Assembly (NCBI GenBank): GCA_003576845.1
Contig: QEVJ01000018.1
Location: 1-56,126 of the forward strand
Direction: 5' to 3'
DNA length: 56,126 nt
Source: Planctomycetota bacterium
GTDB taxonomy: Bacteria > Planctomycetota > Planctomycetia > Pirellulales > PLA5
A program made the position numbers and the translations under genes. The notes beneath the pieces were generated by a model. It was not told where the DNA came from, made no database searches, and saw nothing but the letters and a program-made list of their open reading frames with translations. Shown here piece by piece: positions 29,013-33,432 of the stretch (positions within the stretch are counted from its first letter, which is position 1; each line of letters opens with the position of its first letter).

Positions 29013-29051
29013 AAGTCGAATCGTCGACTTGGTTGGTTGTGCGAGGACTTG

Positions 29052-29423
29052 ATGAACAGTTACAAGGAATTGATCGTTTGGCAAAAAGCGATGGCTCTCG
29101 CCGAGGCCACCTATCGATGGGCAAGTTCGTTGCCGAAACATGAGCTTTACGGACTGACGAGCCAACTTCAGCGTTCCGCCGTTTCCGTCCCAGCGAACAT
29201 CGCCGAGGGGCACGGGCGAGGCTCAACGAAAGAGTATCTGCGATTTCTGTCGGTTGCGCGTGGTTCCTTGTCCGAACTTGAGACCGAGTTCCTGCTTGCC
29301 ACGCGCATCGGCTACGGCGATACAAGCGCGGCGACGACAATCGCCAAGCAGATCGAAGAGGTTAGCCGCCTGTTGCGCGGCCTGCAGAAAGCGCTGCGGC
29401 AAAAGCTCGATAGGCAAGAATGA
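29052..29423 (+). CDS. Four-helix bundle protein (S23 / 23S rRNA intervening-sequence family)
   Basis: A 123-residue protein of the family found inside 23S rRNA intervening sequences in some bacteria and as free genes in many others. Markers are YKELIVWQKAMALAEATYRW, LYGLTSQLQRSAVSVPANIAEG, STKEYLRFLSVARGSLSELET and a C-terminal helix with LLRGLQKAL. It is flanked by inverted copies of one repeat (28981-29012 and 29438-29472), so the gene and its flanks look like a movable cassette. The molecular function is not known. The start at ATG 29052 follows GAGG. Confidence 0.92.
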   Translation: MNSYKELIVWQKAMALAEATYRWASSLPKHELYGLTSQLQRSAVSVPANIAEGHGRGSTKEYLRFLSVARGSLSELETEFLLATRIGYGDTSAATTIAKQIEEVSRLLRGLQKALRQKLDRQE

Positions 29424-29472: not shown

Positions 29473-29636
29473 ACTTCCCCTAAATTCTGGCCTTTACGCG
29501 ACCGATTCAAGTGGGCACAATACCGCCTCGACTTGGACCATCGCGCTTGTCTGCGAGTCCCGGTTGCGGCGCGGGCGGCCGACCAACGGCCGTGCGTGTG
29601 TCATGGACGACCTGCCGTAAGCAAGGAGTGCATACC

Positions 29637-30284
29637 GTGAAGATTTCTCTCGTGTCGGCCACCGCCGTGGCCTGTCTGTCGGCCCTGTGCGCGTTTGCCG
29701 GCCCCGCCCTTGCTCAGACCGGCGTCAAGCCGATCGACCCGGGCGTCCGCGTCATCGACATCGAACGCGCCTTCAAGCAACACGCCCGCTACAACGCCGA
29801 AATCGAACAGCTCAAGGAGCTGGCCAAGTCGATGGAAGCGGAAACGAACAAGGAAAAGCAATCCATCATCGACATGGAAAAGGACTTGCCGAACCTCGCC
29901 GCCGGTTCGAGCGAGCGCAAAGCGCTCGAAGAGCAAATCCTTCGCCGCAAGACCGACCTCGCCGCCCGCACCCGCATCAAGCAGCAGGAACTGCTCGAAA
30001 AGGAAGCCAAGGTCTACTACTTCACGTACAAGGAAATCCAGGACGAAGTCGCCGAGTTCTGTCGCCAGACGGGCGTGAGCCTCGTGTTGCAATACTCCAG
30101 CGACAAGGTCGATCCGAACAACCGCATGTCGATCATGAAGGCGATGGGAAACCCGGTCGTCCATCACGCCAACATCGACATCACCGACAAGATTCTGTTC
30201 TATCTGAACAAGGGCGCGGCCCCGGCCGGCAACGGCGCGCCGGCGGTCTCGGGCCGTCCGACGACCGGCGTGCCGCGCAAATAA
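29637..30284 (+). CDS. OmpH/Skp family periplasmic chaperone
   Basis: A 215-residue exported protein. GTG 29637 is chosen because AAGGAG lies eight bases upstream and the signal peptide (TAVACLSALCAFAGPALAQ) follows. The body begins VRVIDIERAFKQHARYNAEI, the standard OmpH start, and continues as long charged helices (about residues 45-130) typical of the Skp tentacles. The C-terminal NRMSIMKAMGNPVVHHANIDITDKI segment is the conserved base. OmpH often precedes lpx genes in bacteria, as it does here. Confidence 0.9.
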   Translation: MKISLVSATAVACLSALCAFAGPALAQTGVKPIDPGVRVIDIERAFKQHARYNAEIEQLKELAKSMEAETNKEKQSIIDMEKDLPNLAAGSSERKALEEQILRRKTDLAARTRIKQQELLEKEAKVYYFTYKEIQDEVAEFCRQTGVSLVLQYSSDKVDPNNRMSIMKAMGNPVVHHANIDITDKILFYLNKGAAPAGNGAPAVSGRPTTGVPRK

Positions 30285-30288
30285 GCTT

Positions 30289-30368
30289 GTAGGGTGGGTC
30301 GAACTAAGTGAGGCCCCCGCGACTTGATGCACGAACCGGTGGGCCTCACTTCGTTCGACCCACCCTAC
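30289..30368. repeat. Long hairpin between ompH and lpxC
   Basis: 30289-30316 and 30341-30368 are reverse complements at 27 of 28 positions, separated by 24 bases. The unit (GTAGGGTGGGTCGAA...) would fold into a very stable stem in the ompH-lpxC transcript. Confidence 0.95.
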
Positions 30369-30434
30369 GGCAAATCCGCGCTACTGCTTGCCGCTCCGCG
30401 ATCTCCCGCCCCGCTTGACCCGCGATCTGCATCG

Positions 30435-31352
30435 ATGAAATCCCGCCCGCGCACTGCTGCGTCTACCCCGCTCGTCCAGCCCCAACCTCGCTTTCAACAC
30501 ACGATCGCGCGTGCCGCGGTCGTCGAAGGCTTCGGCTTTTGGAGCAGCCGCGACGTGCGGGTCGAGTTTCGCCCGGCGCAGCCGAACACGGGCGTGGTCT
30601 TCGTTCGCGGCGATCTGAACCCGGCGGTTCGCATTCCGGCGGCGGTCGAGCGGCGCATCGAAACGCCGCGCCGCACCGCGCTGGTCCACGGCGCGGGCCG
30701 GGTCGAAATGGTCGAGCACATTCTCGCTTCGCTTGCCGGGTTGCAAATCGACAACTGCGAAGTCTGGGTGAACGAGTCCGAAATGCCCGGCTGCGACGGT
30801 TCGAGCCTGGCGTTCGTCGAAGCGCTGGAAGCGGCCGGCATCGTTCGCCAACAAGCCATCCGCGCCACGCTCGTCGTCCGCGAGACGGTCCGCCTGGGCA
30901 ACGAAGAAAGCTGGATTCTTGCCAATCCGCCGGAGCAGCCCGGCCTTGCCCTGCAATTCCGAATCGAGTATCCGCATTGCCCTTCGATCGGCCGGCAAAC
31001 GTACAAGCTCGCAATCACGCCGAACTCGTTTCGCAAACAACTGGCTTCCTGCCGCACGTTCCTCACGCGGCAGGAAGCGGAATGGCTGCGGTCGCAGAAG
31101 CTCGCGTCCCGCGCCACGACCAAGGAAGCGCTGGTATTCGACGCCGACGGACCGGTGGACAACGAGTTGCGGTTCGACGACGAGTGCGTGCGGCACAAGA
31201 TGCTCGACCTGGTCGGCGACCTGGCGCTGGCCGGTTGCGACATCGTCGGGCAAGTCGCGGCCCATTGCAGCGGTCACCGGCTCAACGCCGAGCTGGTCCG
31301 CGTGCTGTTGGCCGAAGGAGAGAAGCTGCAACCCTGGCTGCGCTGCGCCTGA
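30435..31352 (+). CDS. lpxC: UDP-3-O-acyl-N-acetylglucosamine deacetylase LpxC
   Basis: Zinc enzyme for the committed step of lipid A synthesis. The zinc ligands are His95 (MVEHILASL), His254 and Asp258 (RHKMLDLVGDL), and the catalytic His281 lies in CSGHRLNAEL. The 305-residue length matches E. coli LpxC. ATG 30435 is chosen because the upstream part of the frame runs through the inverted repeat. It lies between ompH and lpxA in one direction. Its presence shows that the organism can make a lipid A-type outer membrane. Confidence 0.96.
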   Translation: MKSRPRTAASTPLVQPQPRFQHTIARAAVVEGFGFWSSRDVRVEFRPAQPNTGVVFVRGDLNPAVRIPAAVERRIETPRRTALVHGAGRVEMVEHILASLAGLQIDNCEVWVNESEMPGCDGSSLAFVEALEAAGIVRQQAIRATLVVRETVRLGNEESWILANPPEQPGLALQFRIEYPHCPSIGRQTYKLAITPNSFRKQLASCRTFLTRQEAEWLRSQKLASRATTKEALVFDADGPVDNELRFDDECVRHKMLDLVGDLALAGCDIVGQVAAHCSGHRLNAELVRVLLAEGEKLQPWLRCA

Positions 31353-31358
31353 CGAAAC

Positions 31359-31510
31359 CGTAGGGTGGGCTGCGCCCACCGGACTCGCCAGGCAAAAGCC
31401 ACCTAGAACCGCTATGCACGCCGCCGTCGCGATGCGATCGACGCAGAACACCGCCTCGCTCGCAAACGTGGGTTGAAATGGAAACGACGGTGGGCACAGC
31501 CCACCCTACG
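31359..31510. repeat. Inverted pair GTAGGGTGGGCTGCGCCCACC
   Basis: 31359-31382 and 31486-31510 are inverted copies with two or three differences; each also contains a GTGGGC/GCCCAC palindrome. It lies between lpxC and lpxA. Confidence 0.85.
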
Positions 31511-31558: not shown

Positions 31559-32365
31559 ATGGCGACTCACATTGCCGAACATGTGTCGATTGACCCGCGC
31601 GCCGAAATCGACGACGACGTCGAGATCGGCCCGTTCTGCGTCATCGGTCCCCAGGCGCGCATCGGCCGCGGGACGAAACTCGAGAACAACGTCACGATCA
31701 CCGGCCGCACCACCATTGGCGAGTACAACCACATCTTTCCCGGCGTCGTGATCGGCGCCGCGCCGCAAGATATCAGCTATCGCGGCGGCGACACGGAAGT
31801 CGTTATCGGCGATCGCAACGTCTTCCGCGAGTGCGTGACGATCAATCGTGCTACCGAAAAAGAGGACGGCATCACGTCCGTAGGCGACCACAACTTCCTG
31901 ATGGCCGGCGCGCACGTCGCCCACGATTGCCGTTTGGGCAGCCACATCGTCATCGCCAACGCCACGCTGCTCGGCGGGCACACGCAGATTCAGGACTACG
32001 CGGCCCTAAGCGGCGGCGTCGCCGTGCATCACTACACCACGATCGGCCGCTTCAGCTTCATCGGCGGACTCGCCCGCGTGATCCACGACGTGCCGCCGTA
32101 TATGCTCGTCGAAGGCCACCCGGCCCGCCCGCGATGCATCAACATCGTCGGTCTCAAGCGGAACAACCTCACCGCCGAGTCGATCCACTGCCTCAACGAG
32201 GCGTTTCGTCTGATCTACCGCAACAAGGTTGGCCTCGACCGGGCCCGCGAAATGCTTCGCGGCAACGACCAACTCGTGCCGGCCGTGAACGAATTGCTGA
32301 GCTTCATCCAGTGCCAGCAGGAAGGCCGGCACGGACGAGGCCGCGAACGGAGGCGGGCCGCGTGA
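31559..32365 (+). CDS. lpxA: UDP-GlcNAc-type O/N-acyltransferase LpxA
   Basis: First enzyme of lipid A synthesis, a trimeric left-handed beta-helix. Hexapeptide repeats run through residues 5-190 and the catalytic base is His122 in GAHVAHDCRLG, equivalent to E. coli His125. The 268-residue length is normal. AGAAGGAGC precedes ATG 31559. The stop TGA overlaps the GTG of the Gfo/Idh gene in a GTGA (32362-32365). That coupling suggests a linked substrate: some LpxA proteins use a 3-amino sugar made by GnnA/GnnB. Confidence 0.95.
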   Translation: MATHIAEHVSIDPRAEIDDDVEIGPFCVIGPQARIGRGTKLENNVTITGRTTIGEYNHIFPGVVIGAAPQDISYRGGDTEVVIGDRNVFRECVTINRATEKEDGITSVGDHNFLMAGAHVAHDCRLGSHIVIANATLLGGHTQIQDYAALSGGVAVHHYTTIGRFSFIGGLARVIHDVPPYMLVEGHPARPRCINIVGLKRNNLTAESIHCLNEAFRLIYRNKVGLDRAREMLRGNDQLVPAVNELLSFIQCQQEGRHGRGRERRRAA

Positions 32366-33432
32366 AACCGCTACGCATCGCCGTCATCGGCGGCGGCCAC
32401 TTGGGCCGCATTCACGCTCGGCTGTTGGCCGATACGCCCGGTGTACAGCTCGTCGCGGTGGCCGATCCGGTTCTCCGCTCGCGGGAAGAAGCCGCCGCGG
32501 CCGCCCGCACCGAGCCGGTCGCCGACTATCGCGAACTTTTCGACCGCATCGACGCCGCAGTAATCGCCACGCCGACCGCCACGCATCGCGACGTCGCCCT
32601 CGACTGCATCGAACGCGGCATTCACGTTCTCGTCGAGAAGCCGATCGCGTCCACGACGCTCGAAGGCGAGGAACTCGTCGCCACCGCGCGCCGCCGCGGC
32701 GTCGTGTTGCAGGTAGGCCACGTCGAACGGTTCAATCCGGCCTGGAAACCGCTCGCCGGCGAAATCGGCCGCCCGCGGTTCATCGAATCGCTCCGCTGCG
32801 GACCCTACACGTTCCGCTCGACCGACGTGAGCGTCGTGCTCGACCTGATGGTTCACGACGTCGACCTCGTTCTGTCGCTGGTCTCTTCGCCCGTCGAACG
32901 GATCGACGCGATCGGCCATGCGGTGATCGGTCCGCACGAAGACCTGGCCAACGCCCGGCTCCAATTCGCCGACGGCACGGTCGCGAACCTCAGTGCGTCG
33001 CGCGTCAGCTACGAAGCCGAACGCTGGATGCGCGTCTTTTCGACCGCCGGTTTCGCGAGCATCGACTTCAACAAGCGGACGTCGACGCTCGTCAACGTCT
33101 CGCCGCGGCTATCCGAGCCGGGCTTTGACGCCGCCGCGCTGCCGCCGGAAGCCAAGAACCTGTTCAAAGAGCGGCTCTTCGCCGACGTCCTGCCGATGCG
33201 GCGTTTGCCGACCGTCGACGGCAACGCCATCGCCGAAGAACTCCTCGATTTCGCGGCCAGCATCCGCGAGGGCCGCGACCCGCGAGTCACCGGCGAGCAG
33301 GGCCTCGCCGCACTCGCCGTCTGCGAAACGATCAACGACCAGATCGCCCGCCAAAACGCCCGCGAAGCCGCCGTCCGAACGCTAGCCCACCCGGCGATCA
33401 TCCCGCCCGCGGAACGCCGCGCAGCCGGCTGA
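32362..33432 (+). CDS. Gfo/Idh/MocA family oxidoreductase, lpxA-coupled
   Basis: NAD(P)-dependent sugar oxidoreductase. The Rossmann motif is VIGGGHLGRIHARLL (residues 8-22), the EKP motif is at residues 92-94 (VEKPIAST) and the Gfo C-terminal domain includes VGHVERFNPAW and HDVDLVLSLV. GTG 32362 overlaps the lpxA stop by four bases and is preceded by GGAGGCGGG; the long open frame upstream is a shadow of lpxA. GnnA of Acidithiobacillus, which oxidises the 3-position of UDP-GlcNAc for amide-linked lipid A, belongs to this family and sits near lpxA. I infer a GnnA-like role, but no GnnB aminotransferase is adjacent. Confidence 0.88.
   Translation: MKPLRIAVIGGGHLGRIHARLLADTPGVQLVAVADPVLRSREEAAAAARTEPVADYRELFDRIDAAVIATPTATHRDVALDCIERGIHVLVEKPIASTTLEGEELVATARRRGVVLQVGHVERFNPAWKPLAGEIGRPRFIESLRCGPYTFRSTDVSVVLDLMVHDVDLVLSLVSSPVERIDAIGHAVIGPHEDLANARLQFADGTVANLSASRVSYEAERWMRVFSTAGFASIDFNKRTSTLVNVSPRLSEPGFDAAALPPEAKNLFKERLFADVLPMRRLPTVDGNAIAEELLDFAASIREGRDPRVTGEQGLAALAVCETINDQIARQNAREAAVRTLAHPAIIPPAERRAAG

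Follow-up and report, generated by a model that had tools for sequence, protein, structure and literature searches.

The planctomycete genome from which the stretch analysed here was taken (56,126 nucleotides in all, hereafter the window) has a conserved arrangement in which lpxC and lpxA are followed by a gene of the Gfo/Idh/MocA family whose product very probably belongs to the GnnA type of UDP-N-acetylglucosamine (UDP-GlcNAc) 3-dehydrogenase. We propose that this organism makes amide-linked lipid A by means of GnnA, an unlinked DegT aminotransferase and LpxA, and we regard the proposal as a whole as a plausible prediction, towards which we lean slightly. In the proposed pathway, the GnnA-type dehydrogenase would be translated together with LpxA from an lpxC-lpxA-gnnA operon, and the Gfo/Idh protein encoded at 32362-33432 would oxidise the 3-hydroxyl of UDP-GlcNAc. 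The product of a stand-alone DegT gene located elsewhere in the genome (G000:C247:31269-32366) would then aminate the 3-keto sugar, giving UDP-GlcNAc3N, and LpxA would put a 3-hydroxyacyl chain on the 3-amine, so that one or both sugars would carry an amide in place of the ester at position 3. The dehydrogenase would belong to a known enzyme kind, GnnA, with the unlinked GnnB candidate as a possible variant of the known system.

Gene organisation around lpxA

On the plus strand of the window, an OmpH/Skp-like gene (29511-30284; Pfam PF03938, 54.9 bits) lies upstream of lpxC (30324-31352), which encodes UDP-3-acyl-GlcNAc deacetylase and is recognised by TIGR00325 (222.5 against a cutoff of 187.25) and by Pfam PF03331, with the homology to LpxC beginning only at residue 58 of the open reading frame. 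The lpxA gene follows on the same strand at 31559-32365. Its product, LpxA1, scores 305.8 bits with NCBIfam TIGR01852 (cutoff 231.05) and also exceeds the NCBIfam equivalog cutoff of NF003657; the frame stays open upstream as far as an ATG at 31478. The gnnA-like gene for the probable UDP-GlcNAc 3-dehydrogenase (32362-33432, plus strand; NAD-binding domain, Pfam PF01408) comes next. As the initial annotation of this DNA had pointed out, lpxA and the oxidoreductase gene overlap in the letters GTGA (32362-32365, plus strand), in which the GTG start of the latter takes up 32362-32364 and the TGA stop of the former 32363-32365. A Shine-Dalgarno-like GGAGG is found inside lpxA at 32349-32353 (plus strand), 8 nt ahead of the GTG. 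Both elements were read from the sequence, and the overlapping gene ends seem suited to translational coupling of lpxA and the Gfo/Idh gene. The same annotation had spoken of a fusion, a term that does not describe this junction: we rejected an lpxA-oxidoreductase fusion protein, since lpxA ends in a stop of its own, the oxidoreductase gene begins with its own start in another frame, and two proteins are encoded in reading frames that overlap at their ends. No gnnB adjoins the Gfo/Idh gene in the window, where the downstream neighbour is a DapA-like gene on the opposite strand.

A small, free-standing ORF, KELIVWQKAMALAEATYRWASSLPKHELYGLTSQLQRSAVSVPANIAEG (29037-29423, plus strand), was also observed upstream of the OmpH-like gene; its product appears to resemble the four-helix-bundle proteins of 23S rRNA intervening sequences.

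The oxidoreductase as a probable GnnA-type dehydrogenase

The best match of the Gfo/Idh protein among PDB sequences is 7bvj (E 1.9e-45; next 5.4e-22), and both 7bvj and 7bvk are entitled UDP-N-acetylglucosamine 3-dehydrogenase GnnA from Acidithiobacillus ferrooxidans. The AlphaFold model of the protein (pLDDT 92.3) places these two entries at Foldseek ranks 1-5, with TM scores to target of 0.92-0.96. Residues E92, K93 and P94, which include the catalytic EKP lysine, and D161, H165 and D166 of the D...HD motif do not vary; in an alignment of Acidithiobacillus GnnA with the proteins of Bdellovibrionota, Omnitrophota and the phylum of the window, K93, D161, H165 and D166 are the same throughout, as are several other positions.

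A genome scan with a fragment of 7bvj returned 80 loci in total, those of Acidithiobacillus reaching up to 99% identity. In one type of locus GnnA stands beside GnnB (Acidithiobacillus, Geobacter and many Gammaproteobacteria), and in another it lies in an lpx region that lacks gnnB (Magnetococcales, Bdellovibrionota, Desulfobacterota and Omnitrophota). The phylum's Gfo/Idh proteins and both types of GnnA locus form one family, with the types interleaved, in a quick tree that has many weak forks. Because the closest PDB sequence and fold match, the family tree and the invariant catalytic residues agree, we assign the product of 32362-33432 to the GnnA type with good confidence, its activity being predicted from sequence and model. 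The view of the initial annotation that this gene belongs with GnnA, and not with generic Gfo/Idh proteins, is thus upheld by its sequence and predicted fold, by the family tree and by the linkage of the gene.

The likeness to A. ferrooxidans GnnA (7bvj, 7bvk) extends to the fold (TM to target about 0.95), the catalytic motifs and the position of the gene directly after lpxA, at an identity of about 32% in the structural alignment. The gene order of Acidithiobacillus is lpxA-gnnA-gnnB-lpxB, whereas in the window lpxC precedes lpxA, no gnnB follows and the gene overlaps lpxA by 4 nt. A layout like that of the window, with a member of the GnnA family in an lpx region and gnnB not next door, occurs in other phyla, namely Bdellovibrionota, Desulfobacterota, Magnetococcales and Omnitrophota.

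Conservation of the linkage to lpxA

A strong ortholog of the Gfo/Idh protein is present in 117 of the 149 genomes that make up our phylum sample. Among these 117, 66 have lpxA immediately ahead on the same strand, no more than 300 bp away, and 74 have it no further than about 3.1 kb upstream, the other 43 being unlinked. Twenty loci of the window's order were examined for gene order and overlap. Every one of them has lpxA directly before the Gfo/Idh gene, lpxC was detected ahead of the pair in 19, and 12 have the exact 4-nt NTGA overlap, the start codon being GTG, ATG or TTG; GGAG-type sites occur at the equivalent position in many of these relatives. Since the linkage recurs across both the phylum sample and the order loci, the arrangement of lpxA and the Gfo/Idh gene is not due to chance.

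In one genome of the window's order (G121), an LpxC-like gene adjoins the Gfo/Idh gene and the sole lpxA detected lies elsewhere. In the f48 genomes (L180, L181, L182, L183), 2-3 kb of other genes separate lpxA from the Gfo/Idh gene, and a conserved protein of 159 aa is encoded directly 5' of the latter. A GnnB concealed in this gap was considered for the f48 genomes G056, G141, G110 and G076, and no GnnB-like gene is found there.

A candidate GnnB encoded elsewhere in the genome

Five near-full-length DegT aminotransferase matches were found in the window genome. The stand-alone gene named above, whose product we refer to as the C247 DegT, is the closest to Acidithiobacillus GnnB, with 45% identity over 368 aa and 305 bits, the other four reaching 205 at most. 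It matches PF01041 at 2e-118 and keeps the PLP lysine of SFYPTKNLG. With a GnnB profile built from nine gnnA-adjacent GnnBs, full-length gnnA-adjacent GnnBs score 552-677 bits and the C247 DegT 446, the comparison proteins WbpE, QdtB and 7b0d giving 436, 427 and 502 bits. The clade of gnnA-adjacent GnnBs (99% support) leaves the C247 DegT outside, and the latter further differs from those of Acidithiobacillus, Geobacter and many Gammaproteobacteria in being unlinked to gnnA. On the other hand, it keeps 74 of the 89 near-invariant GnnB columns; at 12 such columns that differ in WbpE, which were chosen from sequence alone, it shows the GnnB state in nine and the WbpE state in none, lacking WbpE states such as H136S, N191P and H284S. 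The search suggested by the initial annotation, for a DegT-family GnnB elsewhere in the genome, yields a protein of 45% identity that lies outside the gnnA-adjacent clade.

The low profile score was rejected as proof that GnnB is missing, in view of candidates from Granulibacter, a survey of Bdellovibrionota and the gene pair of one of its genomes, G186. Granulibacter bethesdensis has GlcN3N in its lipid A, with GnnB candidates that share only 37-39% identity with Acidithiobacillus GnnB (PMC8036547), and for this reason neither exclusion from the clade nor a low score excludes GnnB function. Across 59 Bdellovibrionota genomes DegT scores stay at or below 497 bits, and a DegT of at least 380 bits occurs in 28 of the 37 genomes with GnnA against 4 of the 22 without (p 3e-5, relatedness uncorrected). 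The pair in G186 (G186:C10:133438-135515; L262) consists of GnnA and an adjoining DegT of 405 bits that nevertheless lies outside the GnnB clade. GnnB thus need not be orthologous from one lineage to another, and membership in the clade may not be required; the pair points to more than one origin of GnnB among DegT proteins. Bacteriovorax stolpii belongs among the bdellovibrios. This species has been listed as containing GlcN3N (PMC8036547). By its sequence, the C247 DegT is a candidate for an unlinked, non-orthologous GnnB, and we infer its pairing with the GnnA-type enzyme.

The distribution of such proteins was followed in the order and in the phylum. In the window's order, 73 of 77 genomes carry the Gfo/Idh protein and 74 of 77 a DegT that matches the GnnB profile at E <= 1e-100, and among the 63 high-quality genomes 62 have the former and 62 the latter; one genome of the order (G266) has the Gfo/Idh protein and no such DegT. 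A tree of 21 sampled DegTs of the order groups 13, that of the window genome included, in one clade (98% SH-aLRT) and places the other 8 elsewhere, and orthology across the order is therefore partial. In the 149 phylum genomes no DegT attains the score level of gnnA-adjacent GnnBs (best 489 bits), and the phylum sample lists contain no adjacent gnnB; 6 of the 117 genomes carry the Gfo/Idh protein without such a DegT. The phylum-wide association of the two proteins is significant per genome (1e-5), with p 0.05-1 when each family is counted once, and co-occurrence was accordingly rejected as proof because it fades in the latter count.

Two loci of the same order, L282 (G283:C651) and L283 (G292:C462), encode DegTs that reach 533 and 519 bits with the GnnB profile, not far below the scores of gnnA-adjacent GnnBs. 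They form one small clade, and in L282 a hexapeptide-repeat gene immediately precedes that of the DegT.

LpxA proteins and the choice of acceptor

LpxA1 has the LpxA fold and shares the catalytic residues of E. coli LpxA (1lxa), keeping those that match Q73, D74, H122, H125, D126, G143, H144, N198 and R204. It differs from the E. coli protein by H99N, Q161H and the replacement of GNHATPFG by GHPARPRC, features that LpxAs of the order commonly show. A comparison of acceptor-site residues had been put forward as a way of recognising an LpxA that uses the 3-amine. It yielded an N99 common to LpxA1 and Acidithiobacillus LpxA, but the gnnAB-linked LpxAs of Geobacter keep H99; position 99 thus gives no readout of the acceptor, and H99/N99 was rejected as a marker of amine use for its inconsistency with gnnAB linkage. 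The choice between a hydroxyl and an amine acceptor could not be read from the LpxA sequence comparison, and Leptospira LpxA (3hsq) is not among the best five PDB alignment matches. That LpxA1 uses the amine is a step we infer.

A second LpxA homologue is encoded in the window genome (G000:C148:48626-49276; L184:1444-2607) and has a histidine where the E. coli protein has D74 (LPQHLRVPEH), as does the sole LpxA detected in G121 (L187). The acceptor of the C148 LpxA may differ from UDP-GlcNAc. In Capnocytophaga, a hybrid backbone arising from two LpxAs has been proposed (PMC3342949), and by analogy a hybrid amide/ester backbone from the two LpxAs of the window genome is conceivable. A wider reading holds that the whole phylum, or at least the order, makes amide-linked primary chains through a GnnA translationally coupled to lpxA and a GnnB that is encoded apart from it and stems from another DegT lineage, with the C148 LpxA perhaps giving a hybrid amide/ester backbone; we put this forward tentatively and think it somewhat doubtful.

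Alternative explanations

The GnnA-type protein might be a real UDP-GlcNAc 3-dehydrogenase that works without a dedicated transaminase, its 3-keto sugar being used otherwise (re-reduction, regulation or another nucleotide sugar) and LpxA making an ester. This idea is in keeping with the GnnA-like genes of Magnetococcales, Bdellovibrionota, Desulfobacterota and Omnitrophota that are linked to lpxA or lpxB and have no gnnB beside them, some of these genomes having no DegT at the WbpE level, and with G002, G034 and G095, which are 99-100% complete and have the Gfo/Idh protein with no DegT at 1e-90. However, a DegT of the GnnB/WbpE class is as universal as the Gfo/Idh protein in the window's order, several of the counter-examples are MAGs, and the Gfo/Idh proteins of G002, G034 and G095 are more distant and unlinked to lpxA. 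We consider this explanation unlikely. It is quite unlikely, in our judgement, that GnnA and the DegT supply UDP-GlcNAc3N or a derivative to O-antigen or another surface glycan while the 3-acyl chains of lipid A stay ester-linked. The WbpB/WbpE (WlbA/WlbC) pair of UDP-GlcNAc3NAcA synthesis carries out the same types of reaction, 3-oxidation and 3-transamination, with proteins of the same superfamilies, and with the GnnB profile WbpE comes close to the score of the C247 DegT. Elsewhere in the phylum, related DegTs occur in WbpB/WbpE-like pairs and clusters (L149, L211), with WbpA/WbpB/WbpD-like surroundings in L149 (assigned by eye from sequences), or next to other Gfo/Idh genes, and the C247 DegT may therefore serve another glycan. 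Against this, the window's Gfo/Idh protein differs from WbpB in being lpx-linked and closest to GnnA, the order loci couple it to lpxA and lpxC and to no glycan cluster, no glycan-cluster genes were recognised beside the C247 DegT in the window genome, and the remaining Gfo/Idh proteins of that genome are far more distant (best 1.3e-25).

That the oxidoreductase acts on some other substrate, as a mere passenger of the lpx operon in an organism with ordinary lipid A, is improbable. The Gfo/Idh superfamily is broad, and the archaeal UDP-GlcNAc 3-dehydrogenase model NF040723 gives the protein 190.6, below its cutoff of 450; as no bacterial GnnA model is among the matches, this shortfall weighs little. 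Yet GnnA is by far the closest of the solved structures, the active-site motif is conserved, and so, within the order, is the 4-nt coupling to lpxA. The reading that we favour, amide-linked lipid A, has to be set beside chemical data from other bacteria. Spiribacter salinus has a lipid A with a glucosamine backbone (PMC5923411), while its congener Spiribacter salilacus has an lpxA-gnnA-gnnB locus (L088) and a further lpxA; genes alone consequently cannot settle the linkage, although it is two different species that are compared here, and gnnAB genes may be silent or strain-specific. The literature searched yielded no structure of a planctomycete lipid A backbone.

Implications for lipid A structure

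The conserved lpxC-lpxA-gnnA operon makes the question of ester or amide directly testable by mass spectrometry. If the proposal is true, the amide linkage would be expected to alter how chemically stable the outer membrane is, and an lpxA-linked gnnA could mark a 3-amino pathway even without gnnB, which would be relevant to the several phyla that have the same layout. Loci from Ectothiorhodospiraceae and their relatives (L072, L079, L088 and L099) contain two lpxA genes per region, one by gnnA-gnnB and one by lpxB, and these paired genes offer a natural comparison of amine- and hydroxyl-using LpxAs.
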